Source: a virus
IMG/VR virus record: IMGVR_UViG_3300009086_000937
Span: 1 to 23,315 of that record
Strand: one strand, 5' to 3'
DNA length: 23,315 nt
In this document: piece by piece, positions 9,056 to 22,927 of the stretch
Layout of the letters: every line of letters starts with the position of its first letter
Numbering within the stretch: position 1 is the stretch's first letter
Made by a program: the position numbers and the translations under genes
Notes under the pieces: generated by a model
The model's database searches: none
What the model was told of the DNA's origin: nothing
The model's input: only the letters and a program-made list of their open reading frames with translations

Positions 9056-9599
9056 TGTATGGATGATCCAAATGCCTTCTTCTCCGCAATCAATGTATTA
9101 TCGTGGGAGAGTAGAGGAGTCGTGGAATGGATATAACCTCAAGTTCTTTAATGCAATCACTCCAGAAACAATGGAGAGTAAAGGATACTTGCATTTTGGT
9201 AAGAAACGTGATACAATAGAGTTCACACCGACCGAGAAAGCAGTGTGGTATAGTCACGTAGAGTTATGGGCAAAGGCAAGAAAGAAACCAATCATAATCA
9301 TAGAACATGATGCGTTATTGGTAAAACCTATACCCGATCGTATGTGGGATCAACACGATATGATCTGTTTAGGTCATACGGGTAAGAACAAGATAAGACT
9401 GCCTGGCCTTGCATATTACTTAACACCTGGCATCGCAACCAGAATGGTGAATGATGTAAAGGCAATAAAAAAGATTACGTGGAACTCTGATGGTACAATC
9501 CACGGGTACGGTACTAAAGAAGGGGTATTTGAGACTGACCATGTCTATCAAGTACAGAATAGATCTATAGGAACAACAATAGAGCATAAGAAACAGTGA
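9045..9599 (+). CDS. GT25-like glycosyltransferase 1
   Basis: A 184-residue protein of the LOS/LPS glycosyltransferase family GT25. The pattern is a short N-terminal strand (MIQMPSSPQS), a FFNAITPE segment that matches the FDAITPE of the related gene at 16778, EKAVWYSHVELW (64-75), corresponding to the FLSHYxLW block of the other two, and IEHDALLV (86-93), the acidic motif in place of DxD. It is the most diverged of the three GT25 genes here. The longer frame from 9012 would start inside the radical SAM gene; ATG 9045 gives an 11-base overlap like that of the neighbouring gene pair and starts at the natural N terminus. The donor and acceptor sugars are unknown. Confidence 0.8.
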   Translation: MRPDVWMIQMPSSPQSMYYRGRVEESWNGYNLKFFNAITPETMESKGYLHFGKKRDTIEFTPTEKAVWYSHVELWAKARKKPIIIIEHDALLVKPIPDRMWDQHDMICLGHTGKNKIRLPGLAYYLTPGIATRMVNDVKAIKKITWNSDGTIHGYGTKEGVFETDHVYQVQNRSIGTTIEHKKQ

Positions 9600-10387
9600 A
9601 GAGATTAGTATATCAAGTTTGTCTAGGCAAAGCGAAGAACTCAGAACTATACCAGCACTGCATTGAATCTGTAAGTCAGTACTGTAAGAAGTATGGATTC
9701 GTCCATATGGTACAACAAACTCCTGTGTTGAACATACGTCCGGATCCATTCATGAGTAATAGATCGGAGGACTCGTGGAAGAAACACGGTGGGTTCTTAC
9801 CTATCTACGAGAAAGAGAATGCGTTCTGTTACTTGAACGAGTTTGAACAGATTGCGATAATTGACGCAGACATCTATATCCGCGAAGATGCACCAAATAT
9901 CTTTGAGGACTTCGGTACAGACCATGCGTTCGGTGCAGTATGTGAACGCGGCATGAACATATCACAAAGATATGTCGATAAAATCAAGAATTATAGTCAT
10001 ATGCAATACTCGACATTGCAATGTAACAAGGTAGACTTCAAACCAAATGAGCGTGGGTTCGAGTTTTTTAACATGGGTTTGATCTTAATCAACTCATCTC
10101 TGTTCCGTCCCTACCTAAATAACCAAACACCGACAGAGTTCATACAACGGTATGAGTTCATGGACTTCGTTAATGGCATAGGGCCATGGAAATGGTCTAC
10201 TGACCAAACACTACTTAACTTCTTCTTGAAGAAATATAAGATCCCTACTAAACATATGGATCAGAAATGGAACGGGTTATTTACCGCGAACGAAAACATT
10301 GCGACATGTTGTTTCGTACACTTCTTTTTAAAAGATTTGTTGCCGGATAGAGGGGAAAATGTCGCTGCACTCATGGAAATGATATGA
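9596..10387 (+). CDS. GT-A glycosyltransferase 1
   Basis: A 263-residue probable GT-A glycosyltransferase, close in style to GT8. It opens with MKRLVYQVCLG, then CIESVSQYCKKYGF. The metal-binding motif is DAD (90-92) in IAIIDADIYI. Downstream are FEFFNMGLILINSSLF, in which the Asn-x-Gly turn normally binds the donor sugar, and WSTDQTLLNFFL, the conserved Asp-Gln step of GT8-type enzymes, then a late His (FVHFFLKD) that may bind the metal. These parts are in the usual order, so it is likely active. The N-terminal arrangement is shared with the genes at 13825 and 15433. GTG start with a 4-base overlap. Acceptor unknown. Confidence 0.8.
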   Translation: MKRLVYQVCLGKAKNSELYQHCIESVSQYCKKYGFVHMVQQTPVLNIRPDPFMSNRSEDSWKKHGGFLPIYEKENAFCYLNEFEQIAIIDADIYIREDAPNIFEDFGTDHAFGAVCERGMNISQRYVDKIKNYSHMQYSTLQCNKVDFKPNERGFEFFNMGLILINSSLFRPYLNNQTPTEFIQRYEFMDFVNGIGPWKWSTDQTLLNFFLKKYKIPTKHMDQKWNGLFTANENIATCCFVHFFLKDLLPDRGENVAALMEMI

Positions 10388-11496
10388 CACAAAGTTATGA
10401 AGAGAAGACCCAGAAGTACGCAACATGGGGTGACAAGTATCTGCAACACACAGATGTATTGTACTCCATTCAGTACGAAGACACATTTAAACCGATCAAC
10501 ATACAACTATGTTTGTGCGAGATCTGCGATAGTGACTGTCCGTTCTGTTCTGTTGCTGCTCGTCCACTCAAGAGTTATATCCCGTTTGAGAAGATTGAGA
10601 AGTTGTTTGAAGACTTCCATAAGTTAGGTGCAAAGGCAATAGAGATTACTGGTGGTGGTAATCCTATGTTGTATCGTGACAAGGTATCGAAGAAGAACAT
10701 CAACGATGTGGTTCTCCTTGCCGCCAAGTATGGATTCGATGTAGGTATCATTACCAATACAGAGAAGTTAGAACGTCATCTCAGACCAGAGGTATATCCT
10801 CACCTCAAGTGGATACGGGTTAGTCTAATCAAGTTAGATGAGAAGTGTGAACCAGAAGACTATGACTTTGGTTCGTTTCCAAAAGATAAGATAGGACTAT
10901 CGTACATCATCTATGACGGTACTAATGGTGTCCCTGATGCGTTGTCACGTACCAACAAAGCCTATGCAGGTACGACTGTAGAGTCGATCAAGAAGATTGC
11001 GAGGTTGATTGAACTCAATCCAGAGATCAAGTTCTGTCGTCTTGCAGGTAATGCGTTGATTGATGGTGCACAGGTAGAAGTACAGAATCAGTGGAAAGAG
11101 GTTGTTAAACAGATTGATGTGGATAACAAGTTCTTTATCAAGGACATCTGGGATAACGCAACACCGTATGCTGATGGTTGTTATGTGGGTCTTACACGTC
11201 CATACATTGCGCCACATCCCGATGGCGGAGACTATCAAGTGTATGTGTGCACGAGTCACGTACTTGAGAAACGGACATATGACCTAGATTTTTCTCTTGG
11301 GTCTATTGACAATGTGTTAGAAATATGGGATACTTGTAATATACAATACGCAAAAACAGGTGTACCCTATAACATAAGAGGCGCAGGATCTGGTGGTTGG
11401 AAAGAAGCATGTCCCAGCTGTTTTTATTTTAACAACAACAAACTTCTTCACACCGTTGCACAACAGATGAGTGAAGATGATAGGAACTTTGCATGA
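10384..11496 (+). CDS. Radical SAM enzyme 2 with C-terminal cysteine-rich domain
   Basis: A 370-residue radical SAM enzyme. CDSDCPFC gives Cys48, Cys52 and Cys55, the CxxxCxxC cluster motif. EITGGGNP (87-94) is the SAM-binding Gly-rich strand. After a complete barrel-like region, the C-terminal part has CYVGLTRPYIAPHPDG, VYVCTSH and ACPSCFYF, which look like a SPASM- or twitch-type auxiliary cluster domain. It also keeps the SLGSIDNVLEIW segment often seen before the last cysteines of such enzymes. It resembles enzymes that alter sugars or glycan-attached groups only by context, since it sits between a GT-A gene and a methyltransferase, both joined by 4-base overlaps. A role in peptide modification is the alternative. 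Confidence 0.88.
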   Translation: MTQSYEEKTQKYATWGDKYLQHTDVLYSIQYEDTFKPINIQLCLCEICDSDCPFCSVAARPLKSYIPFEKIEKLFEDFHKLGAKAIEITGGGNPMLYRDKVSKKNINDVVLLAAKYGFDVGIITNTEKLERHLRPEVYPHLKWIRVSLIKLDEKCEPEDYDFGSFPKDKIGLSYIIYDGTNGVPDALSRTNKAYAGTTVESIKKIARLIELNPEIKFCRLAGNALIDGAQVEVQNQWKEVVKQIDVDNKFFIKDIWDNATPYADGCYVGLTRPYIAPHPDGGDYQVYVCTSHVLEKRTYDLDFSLGSIDNVLEIWDTCNIQYAKTGVPYNIRGAGSGGWKEACPSCFYFNNNKLLHTVAQQMSEDDRNFA

Positions 11497-12092
11497 TGAA
11501 AGATTCAGATTTCGGTGAAGCATATTATAGTACAGTGAACTATATCGATTTCCTACAACGAGGAGATCGTTACAAAAGACTCGCAGCAGACATCAACGAT
11601 CTGTTGAAGAAGATTGGACTCAACAAAGGCCCTGTATTGGACTTTGGTTGTGCAGTCGGTTTCGTGATCGAAGCAATGGAAAACGAAGGTTACGAGGATG
11701 TGAGTGGTGTTGATATCAGTGAATGGGCGTTAAGTCAGTGTAGGGAGAAAGGACTAGACGTAAGCAACTCTATCGACCCCGATAAAGGATATGGTCTCAC
11801 CTTTGCATTAGATGTATTGGAACATATGAACATGGATCAGGTCTTAGACTTACTTAATGTTTTAGAGACTGAAACCCTAGTGTTCCGAATGCCTATCTGT
11901 GCAGAAGAGGGAGAAGATTATGTTTTGGAATGTTCCAGAAAAGACCGCACTCATCGACTCAGATTGACACGAGAGGAATGGGAGTATGTGTTTAACGAAG
12001 CCGGGTATTACTGTGTCGACCTCAATCTACCTACAATCTATTGTAGTGAGGGAGTTTATTCCGGTTTAGCAATAAGGAGTTACTACCCATGA
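11493..12092 (+). CDS. SAM-dependent methyltransferase (class I)
   Basis: A 199-residue class I methyltransferase. Motif I is VLDFGCAVG (48-56), the acidic residue of motif II is Asp74 in GVDIS, and DVLEH (107-111) is the post-II motif of the Methyltransf_11/23 type. The chain is compact, with a normal fold length for a small-molecule methyltransferase. The N-terminal part (YYSTVNYIDFLQRG) differs from the UbiE family, so the substrate is open; a sugar or sugar nucleotide is most likely from its place in the island. The start ATGATGAAAG overlaps the radical SAM gene by 4 bases. It is a different family from the FkbM methyltransferases at 1 and 20199. Confidence 0.85.
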   Translation: MMKDSDFGEAYYSTVNYIDFLQRGDRYKRLAADINDLLKKIGLNKGPVLDFGCAVGFVIEAMENEGYEDVSGVDISEWALSQCREKGLDVSNSIDPDKGYGLTFALDVLEHMNMDQVLDLLNVLETETLVFRMPICAEEGEDYVLECSRKDRTHRLRLTREEWEYVFNEAGYYCVDLNLPTIYCSEGVYSGLAIRSYYP

Positions 12093-12430
12093 ACTACTAC
12101 TTAATACGTGTCGGTGAGGGTCATTGTGTATACTGTAACGGGGCGCAAGAATCGATAGAAAACTATCTTCTTGCGGGATCAGATGATTCAATCGAAGTGG
12201 TTGACCTTGAAAACCTCACTCTTGAAGAACAAGAAGATCTGATGACTATCGCGGAGACTCAAGACCCCGATTATGTTGGTCAAGTTGAAATCGATCCGTC
12301 ACATGAACTGGCTCGTGCAAAGATACCAAATATGCGGTTGACACCACAATTGTTTACTCATAACGACAATGGTGAGAACTGGGTATATGTTGGTGGATTA
12401 GAAAAGATTACTGAAGCTTGCGGATTATAA
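12089..12430 (+). CDS. Glutaredoxin-like protein (CVYC)
   Basis: A 113-residue protein with a thioredoxin-fold plan. YYLIRVGEGHCVYC places the redox pair Cys13-Val-Tyr-Cys16 after the first strand. LTPQLF (84-89) supplies the cis-proline of the TVP motif, and YVGGLEKI (100-107) the Gly-Gly turn before the last helix. The middle, with a DLENLTLEEQEDL helix and DPDYV, is longer than in standard glutaredoxins. It could supply electrons to ribonucleotide reductase (NrdB lies at 488) as phage glutaredoxins do, or act in the oxidation chemistry of the surrounding radical SAM enzymes. It is the only gene in the island with no obvious glycan role. It overlaps the methyltransferase gene by 4 bases and is followed by a 42-base gap. 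Confidence 0.7.
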   Translation: MNYYLIRVGEGHCVYCNGAQESIENYLLAGSDDSIEVVDLENLTLEEQEDLMTIAETQDPDYVGQVEIDPSHELARAKIPNMRLTPQLFTHNDNGENWVYVGGLEKITEACGL

Positions 12431-12472
12431 TGCATCTATATAACAGTGACGTGATGATTATAGATTATACTT

Positions 12473-13828
12473 ATGAATACAAAACTAATCCTTTTCGATC
12501 TAGACGGGGTGTTAATTGACGCAAAAGACATTCACTACAGAGCATTAAACTATGCGCTCGGTGAAGACTATGCGATCACCCCCGAAGAACATCGAAACAT
12601 ATATGATGGCAGAAAGACCTTAGAGAAGTTAGAATTACTAACCGAACTAAAGGGTCTACCTTCCCAGTTACACGAAGATATATTCCGAAATAAACAGGAA
12701 CTTACAGTAAAAGAACTGGACGGTGTACCTGTAAACCACTCTGCAATAGAACTTATGCAAGAACTTGTTGAACTAGGATACACTATCGGTGTGTGTTCTA
12801 ACTCAATAAAACCAACTGTATACTCTGCGTTAGAGAAGACAGGTTTGTTAGACTACTGCAAAATTGTCCTGTCAAACAATCACGTTAAAAACTCCAAACC
12901 ACACCCCGAGATGTATTGGACAGCAATGTCCATGTACGGATTTCTGCCCGAAGAGACTGTTATCATCGAAGACTCCCCGCCTGGATTGTTGGCGGCAAAG
13001 AGATCTGGTGCATCTTGCATACGTGTTGCAAACCCCACCGAAGTGACCAAAGAAAACATACTACCTAAACTACAGAGATTGGCGAACCCTATGAATAACA
13101 AATGGAAAGATGAAAAACTCAACGTTTTAATACCTATGGCGGGTGCAGGTTCTCGCTTTCAACAAGCAGGGTACACTTTTCCTAAACCCTTGATCGATGT
13201 CAATGGTAAACCCATGATACAGGTAGTGGTAGAGAACTTAGGACTGGACGCAAACTTCATCTTTGTTGTACAGAGAGAACATCGTGAACGTTTTCATCTC
13301 GAAAACATGTTGCCATTGATCGCTCCAAACTGTATAATAGTAGAAGTAGATGAGATGACACAAGGTGCTGCATGTACTGCCTTACTCGCTAAGGATTACA
13401 TAGACAATGATTCCCCTTTGTTCTTTGCAAACAGTGACCAATGGGTCGACTGGAATCCTACACAGTTCATGTATGAGATGCAAGAGACTGCTGCAGACGG
13501 TGGTATAGTGACATTCAAAGCAACACACCCCAAGTGGTCGTTTGCGAAGATAGATGAAAATAACTTTGTGACTGAGGTTGCAGAGAAGAACCCTATCAGT
13601 GACAATGCCACGGTGGGATACTACTACTGGAAACACGGATCTGATTTTGTAAAGTATGCAGAACAGATGATCGAAAAGGACATAAGAGTCAATGGTGAGT
13701 TCTATGTGTGTCCTGTGTTCAATGAAGCAATCGCAGACTGTAAAGAGATACGCACTCACACCGCAAATGGTATGTGGGGTCTGGGTACACCAGAAGATCT
13801 TGAATACTTCCTGAAGGGAAAGACATGA
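12473..13828 (+). CDS. HAD phosphatase fused to a sugar nucleotidyltransferase
   Basis: A 451-residue fusion. The first 205 or so residues form a HAD-superfamily phosphatase of the beta-phosphoglucomutase-like group: nucleophile DLDGV (Asp9 and Asp11), CSNS (Ser109), SKPHPEMY (Lys142) and IIEDSPPG (Glu166, Asp167). From about 214 a nucleotidyltransferase domain starts, with PMAGAGSRF (221-229), FPKPLIDVNGKPMI (Lys238) and ANSDQWVDW, the metal-binding Asp of NDP-sugar pyrophosphorylases. The two together suggest consecutive steps making an activated sugar, for example dephosphorylation of a bisphosphate followed by transfer of an NMP, analogous to heptose activation; the actual sugar is unknown. 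No ribosome site precedes ATG 12473, so the start mechanism is unclear, but the nucleophile at residue 9 fixes the N terminus. Confidence 0.88.
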   Translation: MNTKLILFDLDGVLIDAKDIHYRALNYALGEDYAITPEEHRNIYDGRKTLEKLELLTELKGLPSQLHEDIFRNKQELTVKELDGVPVNHSAIELMQELVELGYTIGVCSNSIKPTVYSALEKTGLLDYCKIVLSNNHVKNSKPHPEMYWTAMSMYGFLPEETVIIEDSPPGLLAAKRSGASCIRVANPTEVTKENILPKLQRLANPMNNKWKDEKLNVLIPMAGAGSRFQQAGYTFPKPLIDVNGKPMIQVVVENLGLDANFIFVVQREHRERFHLENMLPLIAPNCIIVEVDEMTQGAACTALLAKDYIDNDSPLFFANSDQWVDWNPTQFMYEMQETAADGGIVTFKATHPKWSFAKIDENNFVTEVAEKNPISDNATVGYYYWKHGSDFVKYAEQMIEKDIRVNGEFYVCPVFNEAIADCKEIRTHTANGMWGLGTPEDLEYFLKGKT

Positions 13829-14508
13829 GAAATATAATACTACAACACTGGACTGGCCCAATGGGTGAGTTAGAGAAGAAGTCACAGAAGTCTATCAAAG
13901 CATATGCAGAGTTCTGTGGTGCAGACTATGAGTTAGTCACCGGTGATGTCTTTCGTAGTGGATTGAGTTCGCCCTGTCAGAAGATGCATATGTTATCACC
14001 TAAGTGGGATGACTATGATATTGTGGTCATGATGGACATTGACATGTTCACACGTAAAGGTTTGACCAAGAACATCTTTACAGATGATACTGGTGTTGGT
14101 AGACACTTTGGCATTCAACCATCGTTGCGTAAGAAGTTGTGCAATCGTTTCCCTCTGTTAGGCGATGAACGATATCCATACTGGGGTGGTTCAATCTACC
14201 GACTGGAGAAAGATATCAGAATCAAACTCCGTGAACAGATACACGAACATGAGATTAAACAGTTTCATAACAACTACGAAGACGAGGGTATCATGCACCG
14301 TCTCGCAGTACGTGCAGATCTAAAAGAAGATCCCTCATTGTACCTAGATGACGACAAGTGGAACAGATCCTCGTTTGAGGAAAACGTAGATGAAGGATAT
14401 ATAATCCATGTTCGCCGTAAAATGAAGAACACGCCGGGGAGACCATCCCCTAAACAGGATAAGATACTTAACTACAGAAAGTTAGTACAAAAAGGAATAA
14501 TTGAATGA
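13825..14508 (+). CDS. GT-A glycosyltransferase 2
   Basis: A 227-residue GT-A-type glycosyltransferase. The N terminus ILQHWTGPMG is followed by a helix with KAYAEFCGADYELV. The metal-binding motif is DID (71-73) in VVMMDIDMF. The later GIQPSLRKKLCNR, WGGSIYRLEKD and NNYEDEGIMHRL hold the residues expected around the donor site, and IIHVRRKMK near the end places a His where GT-A enzymes often bind the metal. It is related to the gene at 15433, which shares the N-terminal IYQYWDG and KAYAEKIGADY segments, and more weakly to the one at 9596. Starting at ATGAG, it overlaps the fusion gene by 4 bases. Confidence 0.75.
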   Translation: MRNIILQHWTGPMGELEKKSQKSIKAYAEFCGADYELVTGDVFRSGLSSPCQKMHMLSPKWDDYDIVVMMDIDMFTRKGLTKNIFTDDTGVGRHFGIQPSLRKKLCNRFPLLGDERYPYWGGSIYRLEKDIRIKLREQIHEHEIKQFHNNYEDEGIMHRLAVRADLKEDPSLYLDDDKWNRSSFEENVDEGYIIHVRRKMKNTPGRPSPKQDKILNYRKLVQKGIIE

Positions 14509-15440
14509 AGATTATGATCACCGGTATCGCCGGTTTCATTGGTATGCATACTGCACTTAGGTTAAATGAATTGGGTCATGAGGTATTCGGTTTCGACAAC
14601 CTCAACAATTACTACGAACCTCTTCTGAAGAAAGAACGTGTGGCATGTCTACGGGAAGCTGGTGTTGGATTCCGAGTTGGAGATCTTCGTGATAAACTAG
14701 ACTTGACCGATTATGTCAGTAATACCAAACCTGACATGGTAATACACCTTGCCGCGATGGCAGGTGTACGTTACTCTATGAGTAATGCAGGTGAATATAT
14801 CGACACCAACTGTCACGGTACTCTCAATCTTATCAATGCCTGTGAAGCAAGTGACATACAGAACGTTATCTATGCGTCTACATCCTGTGTTATGCATGGC
14901 AATGAACTTCCTTGGGGAGAACCAGACCACCTGTATCCTCAGATCAACCCCTATGGTTATACCAAGGCAATCACTGAGTCGCAGTTCCACATCTCTAAGA
15001 TACCTAATGCAGTTGGTCTACGATTCTTCACAGTGTATGGCCCTTGGGGTCGACCTGATATGGCACTGTTTGATTTCACTAAGAACATACTTGCAGGTAA
15101 ACCGATTACTCTATTCAACAACGGTGATATGCAACGAGACTTTACATACGTTGATGATATCGTACAGGGTATAGAATGTGTAGTCGATAATATGACACCC
15201 CGTGATATGTACTCTATCGGTCGTGGTGAAGTAGTGGAGTTGCAACGATTTGTGGACGCAATCGAAGACTCTTTGGGTAAGAAGGCAATCATTGAGTATG
15301 GCCCTAAACACCCCGCAGATGCAAAGACGACTGCGTCAGATACAACCAAGTTACAGAGTATTGGGTATAAACCTAAGACCTCTATTGAAGAAGGAGTAAA
15401 TAACTTTGTCCAATGGTACCGGAGACATTACGGTGAGTAA
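14505..15440 (+). CDS. NAD-dependent UDP-sugar epimerase (UDP-glucuronate 4-epimerase-like)
   Basis: Extended short-chain dehydrogenase of 311 residues. The NAD-binding motif is TGIAGFIG (6-13), HLAAMAGVRYSM marks the cofactor loop, and the catalytic pair is Tyr150 and Lys154 (YGYTK) with the conserved Ser/Thr at 125-127 (ASTS). TVYGPWGRPDMALF is the signature loop of UDP-glucuronate 4-epimerases, and RDFTYVDDIVQGI that of the wider UDP-hexose epimerase family. The expected reaction inverts carbon 4 of a UDP-sugar, probably UDP-glucuronate to UDP-galacturonate. This supplies a donor for the glycosyltransferases around it. Overlaps are 4 bases upstream and 8 downstream. It is the best defined enzyme of the island. 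Confidence 0.93.
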   Translation: MKIMITGIAGFIGMHTALRLNELGHEVFGFDNLNNYYEPLLKKERVACLREAGVGFRVGDLRDKLDLTDYVSNTKPDMVIHLAAMAGVRYSMSNAGEYIDTNCHGTLNLINACEASDIQNVIYASTSCVMHGNELPWGEPDHLYPQINPYGYTKAITESQFHISKIPNAVGLRFFTVYGPWGRPDMALFDFTKNILAGKPITLFNNGDMQRDFTYVDDIVQGIECVVDNMTPRDMYSIGRGEVVELQRFVDAIEDSLGKKAIIEYGPKHPADAKTTASDTTKLQSIGYKPKTSIEEGVNNFVQWYRRHYGE

Positions 15441-16281
15441 AAATCTAATCTATCAATACTGGGACGGTGAAGTCCGACCATCTGCACAATATGGATCTGA
15501 TTGTATGAAAGCATATGCAGAGAAGATCGGTGCAGATTACATATTCGATCTCAACGCAAACTTTGGTAAGAAGTTTGGATTGGGTAGAGTGACACCATAC
15601 TATGGGTGTTTCAAACCAGTCTTTGACGATGCATTCCTTGAGTATGACAACGTCATGTTTGCGGACACGGATATCTTTCCTCTGGACAAGTGTGATGAAA
15701 ACATTTTCGATACGTTTACAGGTGAACTCGCAATGGCGACAGAACCTCTTCAGACTCAATATCGATTCGACCCTAAACTAAAGAAACAGTGCAACAAGGT
15801 TACGGAGTTGACATGGTCACGTCTGGTTACTGAAAAATATGGTTGTGAAATACCTCTAGATCCAGATGGTAGACCCAAGGTATATAACTCTGGTGTCGTG
15901 TTATACTCCAACGCAGGGTTGCGTAAGTGTCGTGAACAGTTTGAACCCTTCCTACCATACGTAGAGATGGTCGAGAGTGATCCTTCCTGTCGTGGTAAGG
16001 TGTATGGTACAGACCAAGGATACCTCCATGCAATGGCATGTTCTATGGACATTGACTTTGTAGAACTAGATAACGAATGGAATAGATACATCACGTGGTG
16101 TCCCTATGACAATAGTAATTCGTTTGTACGTACCGCAGTAGATCCACGTACAAAGGATACTAAGATGGTACACATACAGATGCGTGGTGCAGACAATCAG
16201 TCAAATGCATGGCATCACACGATTGCAAACAAACCCAAGTCTGATTGGCCTACAATGAATAATGGAACATCTATAGTATGA
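15433..16281 (+). CDS. GT-A glycosyltransferase 3
   Basis: A 282-residue GT-A glycosyltransferase. It begins at GTG 15433 (SKNLIYQYWDGEVRP), which has a GGAGA ribosome site seven bases before it; the longer frame from 15406 has none. The metal motif is DTD (78-80) in VMFADTDIF. VYNSGVVLYSNAGL holds the Asn-x-Gly donor loop and GTDQGYLHAM the conserved Asp-Gln, with MVHIQMRG near the end. The N-terminal region (KAYAEKIGADYIF) makes it a paralogue of the gene at 13825. It overlaps the epimerase by 8 bases and the sulfotransferase-like gene by 4. The donor sugar is unknown; the UDP-sugar from the epimerase is an obvious candidate. Confidence 0.8.
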   Translation: MSKNLIYQYWDGEVRPSAQYGSDCMKAYAEKIGADYIFDLNANFGKKFGLGRVTPYYGCFKPVFDDAFLEYDNVMFADTDIFPLDKCDENIFDTFTGELAMATEPLQTQYRFDPKLKKQCNKVTELTWSRLVTEKYGCEIPLDPDGRPKVYNSGVVLYSNAGLRKCREQFEPFLPYVEMVESDPSCRGKVYGTDQGYLHAMACSMDIDFVELDNEWNRYITWCPYDNSNSFVRTAVDPRTKDTKMVHIQMRGADNQSNAWHHTIANKPKSDWPTMNNGTSIV

Positions 16282-16790
16282 TATATTGCACTGGCATGTC
16301 CCGAACCGGTACTACTACATTCTCTGACTTTCTGAAACGTTATCAAAAGAATGTTATACACTACCCCACATTAGATCAATTGATGATGGGTGTTGGTGAC
16401 GGTGCGTCAGACATTCCGGTGATACCATACTACAAGGAGTTGCATAAGATGAGACCCGACTCTAAGTTTGTGCATCTGACTAGAGAGAACTGGGTTGACA
16501 GTGTAGAACCTTACTTCTTACGTAAGAAGGAAAGGACGTATGGAAGTTACACTATGAACTTACGTACAGATGTTTATGGTGCACCACAGTGGGATCGTAA
16601 GAAGTACCATGATGCTTACAAACGTCACAATGATGACGTGAGAGAGTACTTCAAAGACTCTAAGAACTTTCTAGAGATGAGTATCACTAGTGGAGACACG
16701 CCTGACATCTTGGTAGATTTCTTGGGACTACCTCAGAAAGGTTATCAATTCGGTAAGTCAAATGCGAGAGAAAACACATGGAAAAAGTAA
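16278..16790 (+). CDS. Sulfotransferase-like P-loop protein
   Basis: A 170-residue protein with the fold signature of PAPS-dependent sulfotransferases. MSRTGTTTF (7-15) is the 5'-phosphosulfate-binding loop, seen at the very N terminus after strand MIYCTG. FVHLTREN (64-71) with Ser75 a little later forms the 3'-phosphate-binding motif, where Arg69 and Ser75 are expected to bind PAPS. It is shorter than most sulfotransferases, but compact members of this size exist among proteins that sulfate sugars. In this island it would sulfate a glycan residue. A P-loop protein without transferase activity is the alternative. ATGA overlap with the preceding gene and a 13-base overlap with the next. Confidence 0.75.
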   Translation: MIYCTGMSRTGTTTFSDFLKRYQKNVIHYPTLDQLMMGVGDGASDIPVIPYYKELHKMRPDSKFVHLTRENWVDSVEPYFLRKKERTYGSYTMNLRTDVYGAPQWDRKKYHDAYKRHNDDVREYFKDSKNFLEMSITSGDTPDILVDFLGLPQKGYQFGKSNARENTWKK

Positions 16791-17482
16791 AAGCATTCGT
16801 CATCACTCTGACCGACAACAAAGAGTCAACAGACGCCGCCTCTGAACTTATACTGTCTAATGGTTTGGTGGGTAATGATTTCGTTGTGGAAACATTTGAT
16901 GCAATCACTCCGGAACGTGTCGACAATGAGATGATCCTAGAGGATATCACATGGAACTACCCGTGGGATAAAACACAACTTTGTCTAAAGAGTGGGTTAC
17001 GTAAACACCCGTACAAGACTGTGGACAGAAAGAAACGTATCGCATGTTTTCTGTCACACTACAAACTCTGGAAACGTTGTGCAGAAGTTAATCACCCCAT
17101 TATTATTCTGGAACATGATGCAATCTTCACCAGAAAGGTAGACTTGGTGTTGTTGAATGATGTCGGTTATCAAGGTATCTCTCTCAACGATCCACGGGGT
17201 GCAACACGTAGATCTGAAGCATACCATACCATTCTACAGACAGTTGAAGGTGTTCGTCCTGTACCAATAATTGATACAGATGACGTACCACAGGGACTGC
17301 CTGGCCATTCTGCGTACTACATCAAACCTGCCCTTGCACGTATGATGATCGAGTTGGTCAAAGAGTTTGGTGCATGGCCAAATGACGCATTGATGTGTCG
17401 ACAACTTCTACCGCGCCGTCTTGGGTGTGTTCATACTTACTGTACTCGGGTTCAAGGAACCGTTTCAACTACGACAACATGA
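16778..17482 (+). CDS. GT25-like glycosyltransferase 2
   Basis: A 234-residue member of the GT25 (LPS/LOS glycosyltransferase) family. It begins KAFVITLTDNKES, the N-terminal strand and loop of GT25, followed by VVETFDAITPE, ACFLSHYKLW (89-98) and IILEHDAIF (109-117). The acidic EHDA motif takes the place of DxD. LPGHSAYYIKPALARMM near residues 175-190 is the usual later block. GT25 enzymes transfer galactose or related sugars in LOS biosynthesis, but the substrate of this one is not known. The last residues (RVQGTVSTTTT) overlap the next start by 4 bases. Of the three GT25 genes in the island this one and 18225 are most alike (FLSHYxLW). Confidence 0.88.
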   Translation: MEKVKAFVITLTDNKESTDAASELILSNGLVGNDFVVETFDAITPERVDNEMILEDITWNYPWDKTQLCLKSGLRKHPYKTVDRKKRIACFLSHYKLWKRCAEVNHPIIILEHDAIFTRKVDLVLLNDVGYQGISLNDPRGATRRSEAYHTILQTVEGVRPVPIIDTDDVPQGLPGHSAYYIKPALARMMIELVKEFGAWPNDALMCRQLLPRRLGCVHTYCTRVQGTVSTTTT

Positions 17483-18228
17483 AGACCGCAATCATTGTCG
17501 GTGGACAACTACGGTTGGATGACGCCACTCTCACTCTCTCAATCGATTTACTCAAGGATGCGTTTCCTGACGCAGATCTTTTTCTTACCATATGGAAAGA
17601 TGACTGGAATACTAGACGTGAATTAATAGAGAGTTGGGGTGGTACGGTAGAGGTGATCGATGAGTACGAGATCAACTACCACCCCTATGATGATAACCCC
17701 GCAATGCGTAACACATGGAACTGGCAGAAGAAACTAAAGTTCGATAACACCGAACGTCACATTCACCAGACCAAACAGATCCTCAATCATAATCGTATGA
17801 TGAAGAAGTACGGGGACGGGTACGATGTGATAGTACGGGCACGATACGACTCCATTATTTCTCCTACAGAATCATTTGAATATTACGCAAAGTTGTGTTA
17901 TAATAAACGTAGTGTTATTTCATTCATGAACTTCGGTACAACTGAAGGTAAACGAAAGATGTTTAATAACTACAGAGACCATGATAATAGTGGTCATACC
18001 TATATGGTCTATGATGGCGGTATCATTATACACCATGCAGATGTATGGGATGCGGATTTAGTGGATTCACTACATAATAAGAAAGAGTTACTTGCAGCAG
18101 AGTTTGGATGGTATCAAGTTCTGTTAGAGAACAAGAAGGTCAAGTACCGATGTTATGATGGATCTTCTACCATTACACGATGTGTGAAGAAAGGTGATAT
18201 GCGTATTATTAAAGAGATGATGTCATGA
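17479..18228 (+). CDS. Putative glycosyltransferase-like protein, family uncertain
   Basis: A 249-residue protein starting at ATG 17479 (MKTAIIVGGQLRLDD), which overlaps the GT25 stop by 4 bases; the frame open from 17395 is inside that gene and is rejected. IIVGGQLR at the N terminus, ADLFLTIWKDDW after it, and YDVIVRARYDS in the middle form a pattern I have seen in uncharacterised proteins of glycan clusters, where the Arg-x-Arg-x-Asp lies near a putative donor site. A late TYMVYDGGIIIHHADVW adds an Asp-Gly-Gly turn. The pattern hints at a glycosyltransferase, but I cannot name a family or reaction. No membrane segment is present. Confidence 0.6.
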   Translation: MKTAIIVGGQLRLDDATLTLSIDLLKDAFPDADLFLTIWKDDWNTRRELIESWGGTVEVIDEYEINYHPYDDNPAMRNTWNWQKKLKFDNTERHIHQTKQILNHNRMMKKYGDGYDVIVRARYDSIISPTESFEYYAKLCYNKRSVISFMNFGTTEGKRKMFNNYRDHDNSGHTYMVYDGGIIIHHADVWDADLVDSLHNKKELLAAEFGWYQVLLENKKVKYRCYDGSSTITRCVKKGDMRIIKEMMS

Positions 18229-18878
18229 AGTCATATGTGATTACAGTCATGAATATACCGGAGTCAGTGAAGGCTGCGGAACGGTGTATTGAATCGATGC
18301 CAGAATACAATGTTGAAATGTACGCAGGTGTTACTCCTGAAGATGACCCTATGCAGATCGCAAAGAAAGAAAATATGTCTCTGGGATGGTTCTCACACAT
18401 GGACAAGGAAGAGTTTATCTCTAGACGTGACCGATGTGTCTCTGCGTTTCTGTCTCACTACTCTCTCTGGAAACACTGTATTGCCAAAAACGAAGAGATT
18501 CAGGTATTCGAACATGACGCAGTTCGTGTCGGTAACCTACCTGAGTTCATCAATTATCAAGGTTGTATCTCTTTGGGTCAACCTAGTTATGGGAAGTACA
18601 ATACTCCTACGACACTAGGTACAAACCCGTTGACAAGTAAGAAGTACTTTCCCGGCGCCCATGCATACCGTATCAACCCCAAGGGTGCAAAGGCACTCGT
18701 TGAACACGCAAAGACTCACGCATCACCTACTGACGTGTTCTTAACTACTGCATGGTTCCCGTGGTTGGAAGAATACTATCCGTGGCCTGTCGCTGCCGTT
18801 GATAGTTTCAGTACCATCCAAAATGAGGGTGGATGTTCTGCAAAACATGGTTACAACAAGGACTATAAATTATTATGA
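18225..18878 (+). CDS. GT25-like glycosyltransferase 3
   Basis: A 217-residue GT25 enzyme. The start SYVITVMNIPES is followed by the AGVTPEDD segment, SAFLSHYSLW (73-82), VFEHDAVRV (94-102) and FPGAHAYRINPKGAKAL, the same block order as the GT25 gene at 16778. EHDA again replaces a DxD motif. Having two GT25 enzymes so close, separated by one gene, suggests addition of two different residues to the same chain or two recent copies with different acceptors. Overlaps are 4 bases on both sides. Confidence 0.85.
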   Translation: MKSYVITVMNIPESVKAAERCIESMPEYNVEMYAGVTPEDDPMQIAKKENMSLGWFSHMDKEEFISRRDRCVSAFLSHYSLWKHCIAKNEEIQVFEHDAVRVGNLPEFINYQGCISLGQPSYGKYNTPTTLGTNPLTSKKYFPGAHAYRINPKGAKALVEHAKTHASPTDVFLTTAWFPWLEEYYPWPVAAVDSFSTIQNEGGCSAKHGYNKDYKLL

Positions 18879-19546
18879 TTACAGTATGTTGTGTGTTGTG
18901 GGGAGACAAGTTCTCCGAAGAGTATGTACATAAACTTAAACGTGCAGTAGAAAGAAACACTACTCGACCACATAAGTTTGTGTGTCTGTCTGATCGTAAA
19001 ATTGATGGAGTTGATACTAAGATCCTAGAACCCGGCATGACAGGTTGGTGGAACAAGATTCAATTGTTTGATGGTAAGATTAGTGGTCGTATTGTTTACC
19101 TAGATCTTGACACGATTATCACATCATCGATAGACTGGTTGATGGACTACAACGGTACCTTTATGGGTATTGAAGATCTTGGTGTGGCAAACTCACATCA
19201 ACAACACCTCAAGGGTGTTATGCAGTCGGGTGTGATGGCATGGAGATCTGCTGCGATGGATTGGTTACGTGCAGAGTTCTTCTTTACAGGTGATGATGTT
19301 CTCAAAAGATTTCGAGGAGATGGGGAGTGGTTAAACTCTGTCATAAAGAAACGTGACCTACTACAACACCTGTATCCTAACAAAGTAAAGTCGTATAAGT
19401 ATGAAGTATATCCCGACAGATTAGAAGACACATCGATAATCTGTTTCCACGGGAGACCTAGTGTGATACAAGCACAGAACGAATCGGTTACTACTCCGAT
19501 GAAAACGTATGAACCACAAAGTTGGATTGAGGAATACTGGAAATGA
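18875..19546 (+). CDS. GT-A glycosyltransferase 4
   Basis: A 223-residue GT-A-type glycosyltransferase. It starts MITVCCVLWGDKFS, a strand followed by an aromatic turn, then RPHKFVCLSD. The metal motif is DLD (77-79) in IVYLDLDTII. MQSGVMAWRS contains the Ser-Gly step of the donor loop, GDGEWLNSVI a later Asp/Glu pair, and ICFHGRPSV a C-terminal His consistent with metal or phosphate binding in the family. This arrangement matches a common group of cluster glycosyltransferases and differs from the three GT-A genes with an aromatic-Trp start. It overlaps its neighbours by 4 bases on both sides. Confidence 0.8.
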   Translation: MITVCCVLWGDKFSEEYVHKLKRAVERNTTRPHKFVCLSDRKIDGVDTKILEPGMTGWWNKIQLFDGKISGRIVYLDLDTIITSSIDWLMDYNGTFMGIEDLGVANSHQQHLKGVMQSGVMAWRSAAMDWLRAEFFFTGDDVLKRFRGDGEWLNSVIKKRDLLQHLYPNKVKSYKYEVYPDRLEDTSIICFHGRPSVIQAQNESVTTPMKTYEPQSWIEEYWK

Positions 19547-20202
19547 AAGTTTGTCATGTAATCGGTAATGGTGATAAAGCACAATACTTCAAAGAGAAAC
19601 CCCGTCATGGGATAAAGATTCTTTGTAATATGCCTCCGTTTGAAATGGATCCTAGTGAAGTCTACGCAACATGTATGGTCGACTTTAAGATGATGCAGGC
19701 ACTCACCAAGGGTGAACTTGCACTGGATCAGTATGAGTGGGTATTGGGTACTAGACCTAGGATCTGGATGTACGAGAGGAGTACGTTCTACCTCAAATAT
19801 GCACATCGTGTAAAAGAGTTCTACACTGACGTACCTAAGTATGCAGGTAACGCAACCAATTTCAACTGTGGTCACATGGCAGTCCACTACGCAGCGAAGA
19901 AACATAAAGCAGATGTTATTCACATGTACGGATTCGATACTATCTTCGACTTCAACATGCGTAGTTACACTGATCTAATGTTGATGAGTGATCGTAGTGA
20001 TAACAATAACTACCGTTTGTTAGGTAACTGGAGACCCGTCTGGATGCATCTATTTAACGAGTTCCCTAATACTGAGTTTGTTCTTCATCACAACCACGAT
20101 CACCTGAAGATACCTAAACCTGACAATGTCCGTGTAGAGGTGTACAAGGGTAAGATGAGTAAACTACAGGAACGTGAAGATCCTTCGGATATGTCAAAGT
20201 GA
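19543..20202 (+). CDS. Putative sialyltransferase-like (DUF115/GT42-like) protein
   Basis: A 219-residue protein. It opens VCHVIGNGDKAQYF, a Gly-Asn-Gly loop after a hydrophobic strand, and later carries FNCGHMAVHYAAKKHKADVI and HMYGFD, in which a helix after a Cys-Gly pair is followed by a strand ending in Gly-Phe-Asp. The same layout (Gly-Asn-Gly loop, later Ser/Cys-Gly helix and a Gly-x-Asp strand) is found in GT42 sialyltransferases and DUF115 flagellin-glycosylation proteins. My assignment rests on that layout only. EFVLHHNHDHLK has clustered His residues near the end, which could be catalytic. If correct, a nonulosonate may be part of the glycan, but no nonulosonate synthesis genes are visible here. 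Confidence 0.5.
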   Translation: MKVCHVIGNGDKAQYFKEKPRHGIKILCNMPPFEMDPSEVYATCMVDFKMMQALTKGELALDQYEWVLGTRPRIWMYERSTFYLKYAHRVKEFYTDVPKYAGNATNFNCGHMAVHYAAKKHKADVIHMYGFDTIFDFNMRSYTDLMLMSDRSDNNNYRLLGNWRPVWMHLFNEFPNTEFVLHHNHDHLKIPKPDNVRVEVYKGKMSKLQEREDPSDMSK

Positions 20203-20882
20203 TTTTTAACAATGAAGGTTACGCTTATCCGGATTACCAAAAGACGGATGCGAGATTATGGAAAAATCTATATTTTCCCGGCCCAGCAGAACGTGACCAG
20301 TGGGAGACAGTACTGAAACTCACTCGTAAACGTGACTTCGCCATAGACTTTGGTGGTCATGTTGGTGGTTCTGCTCTCAAGTTTGCAAGTCAATTTAAGA
20401 AGGTTGTCTCGTTCGAACCAGTCCCCGCATTGTTTGAGTGTCTGGAAGAGAACACAAAGAACAACGATCAGATAGAGATCCACAATGTCGGTATCAGTGA
20501 CATCGAGGGTACTGCAACCATCTGGGTTAATAAACAGAATCCCGGCAGTAATGTGATCGAGAACCACCAGACCAAGACACTGATCGAATCTAGATGGAAG
20601 AATCCACGTAGAAAAGAACAGTTTGACGAGACTCAACAGATCATTATTAACACAAGAACTATTGATTCATATGAGTTTGAGGACGTTGACTTCATCAAGA
20701 TGGATACAGAAGGGTACATCATGCAACCCCTGTATGGTATGACTGAGACGTTAAAACGTTGTAAACCCCTACTACAGATCGAACGCAGTTGGGAAGGTGG
20801 GAAGAGTGAACAGTCAAACTATCTACAGAGTCTGGGGTATAGATACAACACTACCATAGATCAAGACGATTTCTTCATATAA
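20199..20882 (+). CDS. FkbM-family methyltransferase
   Basis: A full-length, 227-residue FkbM-type SAM-dependent O-methyltransferase. Motif I is AIDFGGHVGG (48-57), FEPVP (72-76) is the family's second motif, and VDFIKMDTEG (163-172) the signature that follows the SAM pocket. FkbM enzymes methylate hydroxyls on sugars or polyketides. It has the same core signature as the truncated gene at the left edge of the window (VDFIKIDVEG), with similar flanking residues (EFENVDF and EFEDVDF). GTG start with a 4-base overlap; it ends only four bases before the promoter at 20886, closing the glycan island. Confidence 0.9.
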   Translation: MIFNNEGYAYPDYQKTDARLWKNLYFPGPAERDQWETVLKLTRKRDFAIDFGGHVGGSALKFASQFKKVVSFEPVPALFECLEENTKNNDQIEIHNVGISDIEGTATIWVNKQNPGSNVIENHQTKTLIESRWKNPRRKEQFDETQQIIINTRTIDSYEFEDVDFIKMDTEGYIMQPLYGMTETLKRCKPLLQIERSWEGGKSEQSNYLQSLGYRYNTTIDQDDFFI

Positions 20883-20925: not shown

Positions 20926-21660
20926 ATGAATAGAGAACCAAGAATGTTCGAACATGTTGATGTAGATCTGGGGTATAAAGACCTCGACACTACCCAGAGT
21001 GAGGATGGCAGACGTTATGTCCTTCCACAAGGCGGTAACTACCCATCCATTACTACAGTGTTGTCTATACTCTCTGAGAAGGGTATCGCAATGTGGCGCA
21101 AACGTGTGGGTGAAGAGGAAGCGAATAAGATCTCTTATCGTGCATCCCAACGTGGCACCGCAGTTCACGAATTGATCGAGAAGTATATCGACAATGACCC
21201 TAAGTATACCAAGGGTTATATGCCTAATATCCATGCAGACTTTCTCAAGGTTAAAGATATACTAGATACTCGTATTGGTAAAGTCTACCTGCAAGAAGCA
21301 CCCCTGTACTCTGATCACCTCAAAGTCGCTGGTCGTGTGGATTGTGTCGCAGAGTTCGATGGCAAACTATCCATCATTGACTTCAAGACTTCACGTAAGA
21401 CTAAACAGAAGGCACACATTAAACAGTACTTCCAACAAGAGACTGCATATGCAATCATGTGGGAAGAACGTACGGGTATGCCAATTACTCAGTTGGTTAC
21501 TATTATTGCAGTTGATGAGGGAGATCCACAAGTCTTCGTTGAACACCGTGATGATTGGTATCCTAAATTACAAGAGACCATAGATAGTTACTATGAACGA
21601 GAAGATAAAAGAAGTGCACGAAAAAGTCGAGAGGATGCCGTTCTCCCAATCTCTCTTTAA
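20926..21660 (+). CDS. PD-(D/E)XK exonuclease (Cas4/RecB-like)
   Basis: A 244-residue nuclease of the PD-(D/E)XK superfamily. RGTAVHELIE (76-85) holds the early conserved His81, QEAPLYS (123-129) an acidic residue, GRVDCV (136-141) Asp139, and IIDFKTS (150-156) the Asp152-x-Lys154 catalytic pair; QETAYAIMW matches the late Gln/Tyr motif. It should cut DNA ends, in recombination or host DNA breakdown. Similar genes are common in T4-like marine phages. The start is uncertain: ATG 20926 would leave a 5-base leader without a ribosome site, while ATG 20944 (MFEHVDV) gives a 23-base leader and reads like the normal N terminus. The last 23 residues are Arg/Lys-rich and share their DNA with the start of the heme oxygenase gene, a 68-base out-of-frame overlap. 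Confidence 0.88.
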   Translation: MNREPRMFEHVDVDLGYKDLDTTQSEDGRRYVLPQGGNYPSITTVLSILSEKGIAMWRKRVGEEEANKISYRASQRGTAVHELIEKYIDNDPKYTKGYMPNIHADFLKVKDILDTRIGKVYLQEAPLYSDHLKVAGRVDCVAEFDGKLSIIDFKTSRKTKQKAHIKQYFQQETAYAIMWEERTGMPITQLVTIIAVDEGDPQVFVEHRDDWYPKLQETIDSYYEREDKRSARKSREDAVLPISL

Positions 21661-22105
21661 GGGTGAACTGACCGACACGCAAAGTATTGCATACATGGTG
21701 AACCAATGGTTCATCTTCCAAGCAATGGAACACAACATCTTCCGACATCTACCACATTCGTCTCTACCACGGTGCGACAAGATCTCAGACTGTGTGCGGG
21801 AACTCGGTGGTAAGATCGATGGGGATCTTATGACCCAAGGAACCGCAAAGTATATCAACTACATTGTGGGTTGTGAAGACGATAAAGACAAGTGGAACTC
21901 TCACGTTTATTTGAACTACATGGCAATGTTGATGGGTGGTCAGATTATTTCCGAAAGTAACCCTGAGATGGAGTGGATGTGGCATTTCTCTGACCGTACA
22001 ACTGCGATCAAATCTATACGCAAACTCAAGGTTGATTGGGATCAAGTCTACCAAGGTTTTGTATATCATGGTGAAATGTTAAAGGAACTCGAAGATGTGG
22101 AATGA
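21593..22105 (+). CDS. Heme oxygenase
   Basis: A 170-residue heme oxygenase, which opens heme to biliverdin IX-alpha, CO and iron using three oxygen molecules and reduced ferredoxin. KEVHEKVERMPF places the proximal heme-ligand His at residue 9, and YMAMLMGGQIIS (109-120) is the distal helix with the Gly115-Gly116 kink that lies over heme. Between them, YMVNQWFIFQAMEHNIF matches the usual heme-pocket helix. It is shorter than cyanobacterial HO1. The start is fixed by the ligand: ATG 21593 is needed to include His9, while the next in-frame ATG (21635) would delete it. It begins within the exonuclease gene and overlaps the bilin reductase gene by 11 bases, so both enzymes of the pathway should be translated from one message. 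Confidence 0.92.
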   Translation: MNEKIKEVHEKVERMPFSQSLFKGELTDTQSIAYMVNQWFIFQAMEHNIFRHLPHSSLPRCDKISDCVRELGGKIDGDLMTQGTAKYINYIVGCEDDKDKWNSHVYLNYMAMLMGGQIISESNPEMEWMWHFSDRTTAIKSIRKLKVDWDQVYQGFVYHGEMLKELEDVE

Positions 22106-22748
22106 TTTTATAGAACTCAAAGATGATCTGATACGTACTATGACATTATACTGTGACAGTCCTAATGTGGCTCACAGAGAAGATCTGGGTCACTACAACT
22201 GGTTCTGGTCGAGTCGCGTACTAGATATGGGTCATGTAAGTGTTGTTGACAAAAGAGATACTCACGGTATCTGGATGATGCACGTCAACGCATACTCTAA
22301 GTCAAAGACTCCGATGCCCATCTATGGGTTCGATGTAGTTTGTTCTAAAAAGAAAGTAACAGGATGTTTCCATGATCTGTCTCCTACAGGATTCAATGAC
22401 ATGAAGATGGAACGTAAACAGGTGGCACGGACACGACCACTTCCCGACTGGGCAAAAGAGATCTTCTCTGAGAACATGATTGCTGCGGGTAACATCAAGG
22501 AAAAGGATGAGTGTCTAGAGTTGTGTGCATTTGGTTCAGAGAACCTTGAACGGTGGTTTGACAAGGCATCAAAGATACCTATGTATTCAGTCATGGATGA
22601 TGCAGAACATTACGAGTTCTGTATGGCACGAGAGAAGTACTGTCACAACCAGTTACAGAACCCCCATAGTTTCAATGTCATGTTGAACCTAGGTTTCCCC
22701 GAAGACTACTTAACTGACTTCAAAACAAACAAACAGTTCCCTTATTAA
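22095..22748 (+). CDS. pcyX: Ferredoxin-dependent bilin reductase, PcyA/PcyX type
   Basis: A 217-residue member of the ferredoxin-dependent bilin reductase family, which reduces biliverdin to a phycobilin by two-electron steps. Comparison with cyanobacterial PcyA from memory: DLSPT (94-98) aligns with the catalytic Asp105 of Synechocystis PcyA, His63 (MMHVNAY) with His88, PMPIYGFDVV with PLFGCDIV, DWAKEIFSE with PWGEIFSE, and YCHNQLQNP with YCQQQQKND. PcyA Glu76, needed for exovinyl reduction, has no match: the corresponding HLE reads HVS (47-49). This fits PcyX, a phage enzyme reported to turn biliverdin into phycoerythrobilin, better than PcyA, which makes phycocyanobilin. It follows the heme oxygenase with an 11-base overlap and precedes a small protein with a 1-base overlap. 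No ferredoxin is encoded nearby. Confidence 0.88.
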   Translation: MWNDFIELKDDLIRTMTLYCDSPNVAHREDLGHYNWFWSSRVLDMGHVSVVDKRDTHGIWMMHVNAYSKSKTPMPIYGFDVVCSKKKVTGCFHDLSPTGFNDMKMERKQVARTRPLPDWAKEIFSENMIAAGNIKEKDECLELCAFGSENLERWFDKASKIPMYSVMDDAEHYEFCMAREKYCHNQLQNPHSFNVMLNLGFPEDYLTDFKTNKQFPY

Positions 22749-22927
22749 TGGTTAGAGTAACTTACAAACATTGGAAGACAGGCATGGTTCTAGAGATAGA
22801 AGGGACTATGCCGGATCACCTCAACAACCCCACTTCAGCAAGAATTGTCGTTTTGACCCATGATGGTATATACGAAGATGTTATAAGAGATACCATTATC
22901 GAGATAAAACAGTCTAAAAAAACCTAA
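22748..22927 (+). CDS. Small protein of unknown function (59 aa)
   Basis: A 59-residue protein, MVRVTYKHWKTGMVLEIEGT, then MPDHLNNPTSARIVV, a strand with LTHDGIYEDVIRDTI, and an EIKQSKKT end. The alternating hydrophobic pattern suggests a small beta-rich domain. Its ATG shares one base with the stop of the bilin reductase (TAATG), so it is translationally coupled to it. I remember similar short proteins in T4-like marine phages, where they are unnamed, which suggests a core gene rather than part of the bilin pathway. No cysteine is present to attach a bilin and no known bilin-binding motif is visible, so I do not propose it as a bilin carrier. Confidence 0.65.
   Translation: MVRVTYKHWKTGMVLEIEGTMPDHLNNPTSARIVVLTHDGIYEDVIRDTIIEIKQSKKT

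Follow-up and report, generated by a model that had tools for sequence, protein, structure and literature searches.

A phage heme oxygenase and bilin reductase pair in which both active sites are altered and, among relatives, the reductase has been exchanged

Introduction

Why do phages of hosts without phycobilisomes carry genes for bilin pigments? The question is raised by IMGVR_UViG_3300009086_000937, a single IMG/VR record of 23,315 bases from an uncultured marine virus of bacteria (the window, by which we mean the whole stretch of DNA analysed), at the right end of which a heme oxygenase (HO) gene runs into a gene for a ferredoxin-dependent bilin reductase (FDBR). Bilin genes in such phages are called enigmatic in a passage of Wegner et al. 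2024 (PMC11480375), which names as options iron supply, or chromophores for phytochromes or bilin biosynthesis-associated globins (BBAGs); according to the same paper, HO-PcyX cassettes were already known in print from marine phages, as were the pelagiphage Mosig and, in freshwater, a phage whose reductase is a true PcyA. An initial annotation of the window recognised a heme oxygenase and a PcyA/PcyX-type reductase and placed them in the PcyX lineage. Judged by the sequences compared here, the pair is of this known kind, with altered active sites in both enzymes and with a natural exchange of the reductase among its relatives. We consider it somewhat more probable than not that the pair is an auxiliary cassette in which heme is broken down for its iron and the reductase clears the biliverdin, catalysis by both enzymes being predicted.

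Results and discussion

Two enzymes of known families

The 11-base overlap of the HO (21593-22105) and FDBR (22095-22748) genes, pointed out in the initial annotation, is borne out by the coordinates of the open reading frames (ORFs; Table 1) and suggests coupled translation. The same spacing of -11 is found in 23 of the 32 other contigs of the clade described below, the remainder having -17, -14, 4, 10 or 105. Both products pass their Pfam cut-offs, the HO with 41.4 bits against PF01126 (cut-off 23) and the FDBR with 35.6 bits against PF05996 (cut-off 31). AlphaFold2 models, built from alignments of viral relatives (71 HO and 65 FDBR rows of the tree sets), have mean pLDDT values of 96.2 for the HO and 94.6 for the FDBR. 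In VIA-align comparisons the HO model matches rat HO-1 with Z 20.4 and a root mean square deviation (rmsd) of 2.2 over 170 residues, and the FDBR model matches both PcyA (Z 25.1, rmsd 2.1, 209 residues) and PcyX (Z 21.4, rmsd 2.0, 174 residues). Family score and fold thus place both proteins, as does the proximal His9 in the HO, and the naming of the two families stands. What the initial annotation missed are the altered active sites: Ser49 in the FDBR, and Phe42, Asn108, Ala111 and Met112 in the HO.

At least 580 IMG/VR stretches encode relatives of the reductase, and the counts and trees below rest on the loci examined (L and G numbers are our handles for loci and contigs). After removal of near copies (rows contained in another, or of equal length and more than 95% identical) and of short rows (FDBR below 180 amino acids (aa), HO below 140 aa), there were 89 FDBR rows, of which 88 came from 176 loci with a match and one is PDB entry 5owg. 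The HO set has 97 rows, drawn from 178 loci. Some contigs are represented by more than one locus. A second FDBR tree of 55 rows leaves out seven long-branch or repeated outgroup rows, with the Asp rows thinned to 24.

A serine-type bilin reductase

The catalytic Asp-His pair, which we take to be a mark of PcyX, is present in the window FDBR as Asp80 and His63; both are invariant in all 65 rows of the alignment (A5) and align with the corresponding residues of PcyX and PcyA. Among the key residues listed initially, His63 and, in the HO, His9 and Gly115-Gly116 are confirmed, but Asp94 belongs to an HDLSPT motif; the catalytic Asp is Asp80 instead. A second position separates the classes. Asp55 is called PcyX-specific in a passage of Wegner et al. 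2024 (PMC11480375), and Glu76 of PcyA is tied to 18-vinyl reduction and described as absent from PcyX and pre-PcyA in part of a PNAS 2023 paper (PMC10151467). The window has Ser49 at this site, in place of either residue, and against the NCBIfam PcyA model NF002760 it scores 48.4 bits, below the cut-off of 206. The missing Glu does not mean inactivity, since some PcyX and pre-PcyA proteins without Glu76 make phycoerythrobilin (PEB) or phytochromobilin, as described in the same part of PMC10151467.

In the 89-row tree a branch with support 100/100 and a length of 1.8 changes per column sets apart the 18 distinct Ser rows, which share ten diagnostic positions, Ser49 among them. Ser and Asp rows group together with support 78/88 in the 55-row tree, and with 88/75 in the 89-row tree, where three odd rows join them; in the latter, 5owg and Mosig share a fork that does not include the Ser clade. 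The phylogeny that the initial annotation had proposed as a check agrees with it in a weak grouping with PcyX and departs from it in leaving the window outside the fork with characterised PcyX. Given this weak grouping, the long separate branch and the absence of Asp55, membership of the PcyX lineage is not supported as originally worded. As it has neither the Asp55 of PcyX nor the Glu76 of PcyA, we file the window FDBR, on its residues, as a separate PcyX-like, Ser-type subfamily and not as PcyX.

The alternative is an unremarkable PcyX cassette: its biochemistry would match that of the characterised marine system, and the substitutions would be neutral. In its favour, the top PDB chain for the window FDBR by sequence is PcyX itself (5owg, E 1.8e-37), the Asp-His pair is kept, and in work by Ledermann and colleagues from 2018 the Asp that replaces Glu76 in PcyX is reportedly not involved in catalysis; yet the long, fully supported stem, the ten diagnostic positions and the fact that the HO partner has changed too make this somewhat unlikely. 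Comparison with the marine phage PcyX and HO (EBK42635, PDB 5owg; Pelagibacter phage Mosig EXVC030M) shows both sides. The systems are alike in gene order, HO then FDBR, with a small overlap, in their non-cyanophage T4-like carrier and in the Asp-His pair. The window FDBR is, however, only 36.7% identical to that of Mosig, with Ser replacing Asp55, and the window HO is 28.4% identical over 76% and without the Tyr58/Arg136/Asp140 relay discussed below; the cassette follows an exonuclease gene in the window, whereas in Mosig it lies beside neck genes. Upstream of the pair in Mosig, at a distance of a few genes, lies a gene annotated as ferrochelatase (L002 11354-12124), placing heme making beside heme breaking.

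The freshwater phage PcyA of the CB_2 type, as described in part of Wegner et al. 2024 (PMC11480375), resembles the window pair in being a PcyA/PcyX-line reductase with a phage HO in a non-cyanophage; CB_2 lacks Asp55 and makes phycocyanobilin, while the window has Ser. Viral Glu-type rows such as L131 and L140 may correspond to CB_2. Cyanophage PebS and PcyA are likewise phage-encoded FDBRs of the same fold (PebS by structure comparison), but they belong to other FDBR lineages with cyanobacterial hosts and give weak sequence matches only (29.8% identity over 45% of the query).

An altered distal network in the heme oxygenase

The canonical distal relay of HO-1 consists of Tyr58, Arg136 and Asp140 according to a passage of PMC5623701; human HO-1 numbering was transferred by hand, using HmuO and the residues which that passage names. 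In the window these sites read Phe42, Asn108 and Met112. The 23 HO rows without the distal Asp form one side of a branch (SH-aLRT, an approximate likelihood ratio test, 99), and differ systematically from the 74 Asp-type rows. At the Tyr58 site they have Phe (22) or Met (1), against Tyr in 74/74; at Arg136 they have Asn in 23/23, against Arg (63), Leu (10) and Met (1); at Asp140 (position 112) they have Met (11), Phe (10), Trp (1) and Leu (1), against Asp in 74/74. The Gly139 site (position 111) is Gly in 15 and Ala in eight, the window among the latter, and the Asn210 site is His in 20, Gln in two and Asn in one, compared with Ala (50), Asn (11), Ser (9), Phe (2), Cys (1) and Val (1) in the Asp-type rows. 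Kept in 23/23 are the heme-ligand, His132, Tyr134, Arg183, Gly143 and Gly144 sites. Absence of the GD motif (Gly139-Asp140) as such is not unique to the clade, for HOs of Acetobacteraceae also lack it.

One possibility is that this HO has lost its activity and become a heme-binding or peroxidase-like protein, with the reductase using host biliverdin or being a relic. Loss of the Tyr58, Arg136 and Asp140 equivalents in all 23 rows, and of Gly139 in eight, is what one might expect, and human HO-1 with Asp140Ala is reported to become a peroxidase in a passage of PMC5623701. We nevertheless regard inactivity as quite unlikely: the gene is tightly linked to a reductase of either type, both genes are under purifying selection (see below), and plant HO-1 is reported to be active without the same Arg and Asp, working through another network. 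From the plant precedent we read the phage type as probably active with a rebuilt network. The likeness to the plant-type enzyme GmHO-1, reported to be a working HO, lies in the lack of Arg136 and Asp140 equivalents; the solutions differ, as GmHO-1 is described as having His150 at the Asp position. That position is taken by Met, Phe, Trp or Leu in the phage type, which has a clade-specific Asn and His elsewhere. An HO in which the whole distal relay is replaced would be a natural mutant for the long-studied question of proton delivery.

Distribution and selection

Ser-type FDBRs were found in 35 contigs, the window and 34 other viral ones, among the loci examined. An HO gene adjoins the reductase gene in all 35, and its Asp140 site is Met, Phe, Trp or Leu in all 35; a pattern check had given 34/35, but the missing one, L035, was a pattern error and reads GHMSIID. 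Chance or artefact was rejected as an explanation because the window FDBR protein recurs unchanged in contigs L003 and L004 and the pair type in 35 contigs. In the loci read, the remaining FDBRs whose HO partner could be read, with Asp, Glu, Asn, Val or Lys at the key site, adjoin an HO with the GD motif, except in three cases, L117, L121 and L122. These break the pairing from the HO side and weaken a rigid pairing of Ser-type FDBR with Asp-less HO as proof of co-adaptation; moreover, each state requires one change on its own tree, so the pairing is not independent evidence.

Viral FDBRs are not always of Asp or Glu type outside the clade, an idea rejected on finding Asn (L129), Val (L172) and Lys (L171), and all three adjoin HOs with the GD motif. 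Asp-type viral HOs also occur without a bilin reductase in the DNA examined around them (L137, L138, L141-L145 and L148). A single scan of genome contigs, of limited sensitivity, gave eight loci and no bacterial Ser-type FDBR among them; four are Glu-type PcyA of Acetobacteraceae and four are contigs of metagenome-assembled genomes with Asp, presumed to be phage sequence. Among 385 genomes of the Falsiroseomonas class, three have a bilin reductase match (the centre genome included), two of them over the cut-off, and the reductases of the other two genomes gave no match to the phage profile in a search of limited sensitivity. We found no report of a Ser-type FDBR in the literature on phage PcyX and bilin reductases; supplements and most subscription papers lay outside that search, so one may be in print.

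Both genes are under purifying selection. Of the 17 within-clade comparisons for which a ratio of nonsynonymous to synonymous change (dN/dS, NG86) could be calculated, 15 lie at 0.03-0.13 and two are higher, 0.26 (L033/L034 FDBR) and 0.66 (L010/L011 HO, which are nearly identical); many dS values exceed 1. Six comparisons, with saturated dS, gave no value.

Exchange of the reductase

The three exceptions (L117, L121, L122) have the same Asp-less HO type beside a Glu-type FDBR, and these FDBRs group with support 99/99. L117 can be aligned with L118, L085 and L087 at 91% DNA identity for 3,518 bases, up to the point where the HO gives way to the FDBR; there is no alignment across the FDBR, and identity resumes at 87-89% from base 4204. 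At the protein level L117 and L118 share 86.9% identity in the HO and 31.7% in the FDBR. The exchanged span is 3518-4204 in L117 against 3518-4587 in L118, and a DUF454 gene has gone from L117 along with the original reductase. We call the incoming FDBR 'PcyA-like' on the strength of its Glu and its NCBIfam PcyA scores (81 and 102 bits in the L117/L121 group, below the cut-off of 206), because PDB scores favour PcyX (L117) or nearly tie PcyA with PcyX (L121). The Asp-less HO type probably feeds two reductase types, which would then draw on the same HO product.

This natural exchange (L117 against L118, L085 and L087) separates 'pigment matters' from 'heme breakdown matters'. If the pigment can change while the HO and the surrounding genome stay, the selected function would be heme breakdown and iron release. 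In its fullest form the proposal combines a relay-free HO, unlike the solution found in plants, with an exchangeable reductase, mostly Ser-type and in some phages Glu-type and PcyA-like, with or without DUF454, the pigment being a by-product of selected heme breakdown and iron release; in this form we put it forward tentatively, as doubtful. If true, it would account for the bilin genes of phages whose hosts have no phycobilisomes.

A proposed role in heme breakdown

How might the cassette work? We infer enzyme activity, electron donor, product and iron role as follows. The HO would cleave host heme, releasing ferrous iron and CO and leaving biliverdin, with electrons from host ferredoxin or flavodoxin, dispensing with the Tyr-Arg-Asp relay, probably by way of a rebuilt network that includes the clade-specific Asn108 and His159. 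The reductase encoded by the overlapping gene would take the biliverdin and reduce it with host ferredoxin through the Asp80-His63 pair. That PcyX makes PEB had been applied to this reductase from the start, which is not supported as written, Asp55 being absent. With no Glu, the 18-vinyl step of PcyA is not expected, and on that ground the likeliest product would still be PEB, phytochromobilin and 15,16-dihydrobiliverdin being the other candidates. The phage would most likely benefit by gaining iron from host heme during infection, for ribonucleotide reductase and Fe-S proteins, while the reductase removes biliverdin.

Contig G003, a close relative of the window, carries IscU, at 220.1 bits against a cut-off of 192.4, together with an IscA-like gene that narrowly misses its own (150.3 against 150.6 bits). 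This is support for an iron role, though not proof. So is the DUF454 gene that follows the FDBR in part of the clade, described below. Of 51 records, nine have NifU_N (IscU): three Ser-type contigs, the contig of L117, four contigs with cassettes of other types and phage C48C1. IscU was accordingly rejected as specific to the clade, only three of the nine being Ser-type.

Several points weigh against this reading. NifU_N occurs in only three of the 31 Ser-type contigs searched (G003, G026 and G027). A passage of PMC11480375 attributes loss of the PcyX-type product to missing Asp55. For the HO, to the peroxidase behaviour of the human Asp140Ala mutant one can add that HO activity suffers when the conserved glycines or the water network are lost, as stated in published work, and the window HO is changed at both the Gly139 and Asp140 positions; Asn108 and His159 as a relay are a guess from the alignment.

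Freeing iron from heme needs no reductase, and the reductase is kept beside the HO in 35/35 Ser-type contigs. This favours the view that the pigment is the point, the pair supplying the chromophore of a photoreceptor, or of some other protein that binds bilins, in the host; a Bradyrhizobium hemO-pcyA-alaS island with an adjacent bphP does make a working phytochrome, according to a passage of PMC11480375. Against it, the change from a PcyX-like to a Glu-type reductase in one phage background probably alters the pigment, unless the host changed too, and neither GAF domains nor phycobiliproteins turned up. Apart from Mosig and C48C1, the records covered are fragmentary or of unknown completeness. 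GAF, like Fer2 and class I/II aminotransferase (AlaS), gave no match in 29/29 clade contigs, and no phycobiliprotein scored over the cut-off in 41 records, where two matches below it both lie within a single, very long reading frame belonging to a phage of a different type. These searches agree with the initial remark that no phycobiliprotein, phytochrome or ferredoxin was visible, and we consider the chromophore explanation unlikely.

The phage and the setting of the cassette

Two sister contigs extend the window, G003 (62 kb), 98-99% identical to nearly the whole of it, and G004, 86-89% identical over most of it. G003 encodes UvsX, a DnaB-like helicase and DNA polymerase, and G004 head closure, tail tube and baseplate hub proteins, which upholds the initial view of a T4-like phage. 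For four of five proteins the nearest sequenced phage is C48C1 (nrdB 85.5%, exonuclease 62.4%, UvsX 73.4%, baseplate 39.9%, the last against 33.8% to Mosig), and a SAR11 myophage was best for none of the five, so these proteins do not place the window in the pelagiphage (Mosig/HTVC008M) group. The fifth protein, PhoH, has Synechococcus phages as its top rows at 46-50% identity, S-H38 leading with 48.0%, and C48C1 was rejected as nearest phage by this protein. C48C1 gave no HO or FDBR match; its record names no host and does not describe it as a cyanophage.

Could the pair serve as in cyanophages, keeping phycobilisomes lit in an infected cyanobacterium? T4-like Synechococcus phages are relatives, some of them with PcyA, and the PhoH result points the same way. 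The weak matches to cyanophage FDBRs, C48C1 as nearest phage for the other four proteins and the lack of any photosystem core gene in 36/36 records (34 contigs with the Asp-less HO type, largely fragments, together with Mosig and C48C1) make this use very improbable.

Table 1. Positions of the gene pair, its diagnostic codons and other features (window coordinates unless a locus is named)
Feature	Position	Strand	Basis
HO gene, 170 aa, distal-Asp-less ('YLNY') type	21593..22105	+	Pfam PF01126, AlphaFold2, VIA-align
FDBR gene, 217 aa, Ser-type PcyX-like	22095..22748	+	Pfam PF05996, 5owg match, AlphaFold2, VIA-align
HO/FDBR overlap, 11 bases	22095..22105	+	ORF coordinates
His9 codon, proximal heme ligand (human HO-1 His25)	21617..21619	+	His in 97/97 HO rows
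Phe42 codon at human HO-1 Tyr58 site	21716..21718	+	HO alignment
Codons Asn108 to Met112, with Asn in place of Arg136, Ala in place of Gly139 and Met in place of Asp140	21914..21928	+	HO alignment
Gly115-Gly116, distal-helix kink glycines	21935..21940	+	kept in 97/97 HO rows
His159 codon at human HO-1 Asn210 by hand mapping; candidate distal-network replacement	22067..22069	+	HO alignment
Ser49 codon at PcyX Asp55 / PcyA Glu76 site	22239..22241	+	Ser in 18/18 distinct clade rows
His63 codon, PcyA His88 equivalent (residue name from a passage of PMC10151467)	22281..22283	+	invariant in A5, 65 sequences
Asp80 codon, catalytic Asp, PcyA Asp105 equivalent, in GFDVV	22332..22334	+	invariant in A5
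59-aa ORF sharing one base with the FDBR stop	22748..22927	+	no family match
PD-(D/E)XK exonuclease gene, overlapping HO start by 68 bases	20926..21660	+	phrog_298 E 1.4e-77
Sugar-modification island	7237..20882	+	family scan of 10 genes in 7237-16278 and one at 20199; genes 16278-20202 outside the scan
Gene for the small subunit of class Ia ribonucleotide reductase, an iron enzyme (context)	488..1450	+	PF00268 248.7 bits
Adjacent IscU and IscA-like genes	L189 12842-13575 (contig G003)		profile match
DUF454 gene examples	L033 6629-7048; L039 6629-7051; L118 4143-4574		third cassette gene in part of the clade

Upstream of the HO, a PD-(D/E)XK exonuclease gene is found in 23 of 25 other Ser-type loci tried, within about 300 bases of the HO or overlapping it in 17 of the 23; the two without it, L034 and L042, have little upstream DNA. 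It is also upstream of the HO in L117, L121 and L122. Downstream, a gene for a DUF454 (YbaN-type) membrane protein follows the FDBR in 18 loci representing 14 contigs, all with a Ser-type FDBR, overlapping the FDBR end in nine of the 14 and starting 245 or 890 bases later in the others. DUF454 as exclusive to the clade was rejected, as four of the ten DUF454-bearing records (49 searched) are of other types, none with the gene beside the cassette in the flanks examined. In passages of published work, DUF454 and heme oxygenase are among the commonest co-occurring domains around genes of cluster 1 of the type 11 secretion system (T11SS; PMC12282271), and DUF454 rises under iron restriction in Avibacterium (PMC7970244). 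Relatives of the 59-aa ORF after the window FDBR were found only in L005 (94%) and L006 (87%) among the loci tried.

The sugar-modification island next door, another element of the initial annotation, was recovered by the family scan. It encodes GT25-like and GT8-like proteins (the latter below the cut-off), an NAD epimerase, two methyltransferases, a fusion of HAD and nucleotidyltransferase domains and two radical SAM proteins. The radical SAM genes lie at 8075-9055 and 10384-11496, one product having a SPASM domain, and a single gene at 12473-13828 encodes the HAD phosphatase fused to the nucleotidyltransferase.

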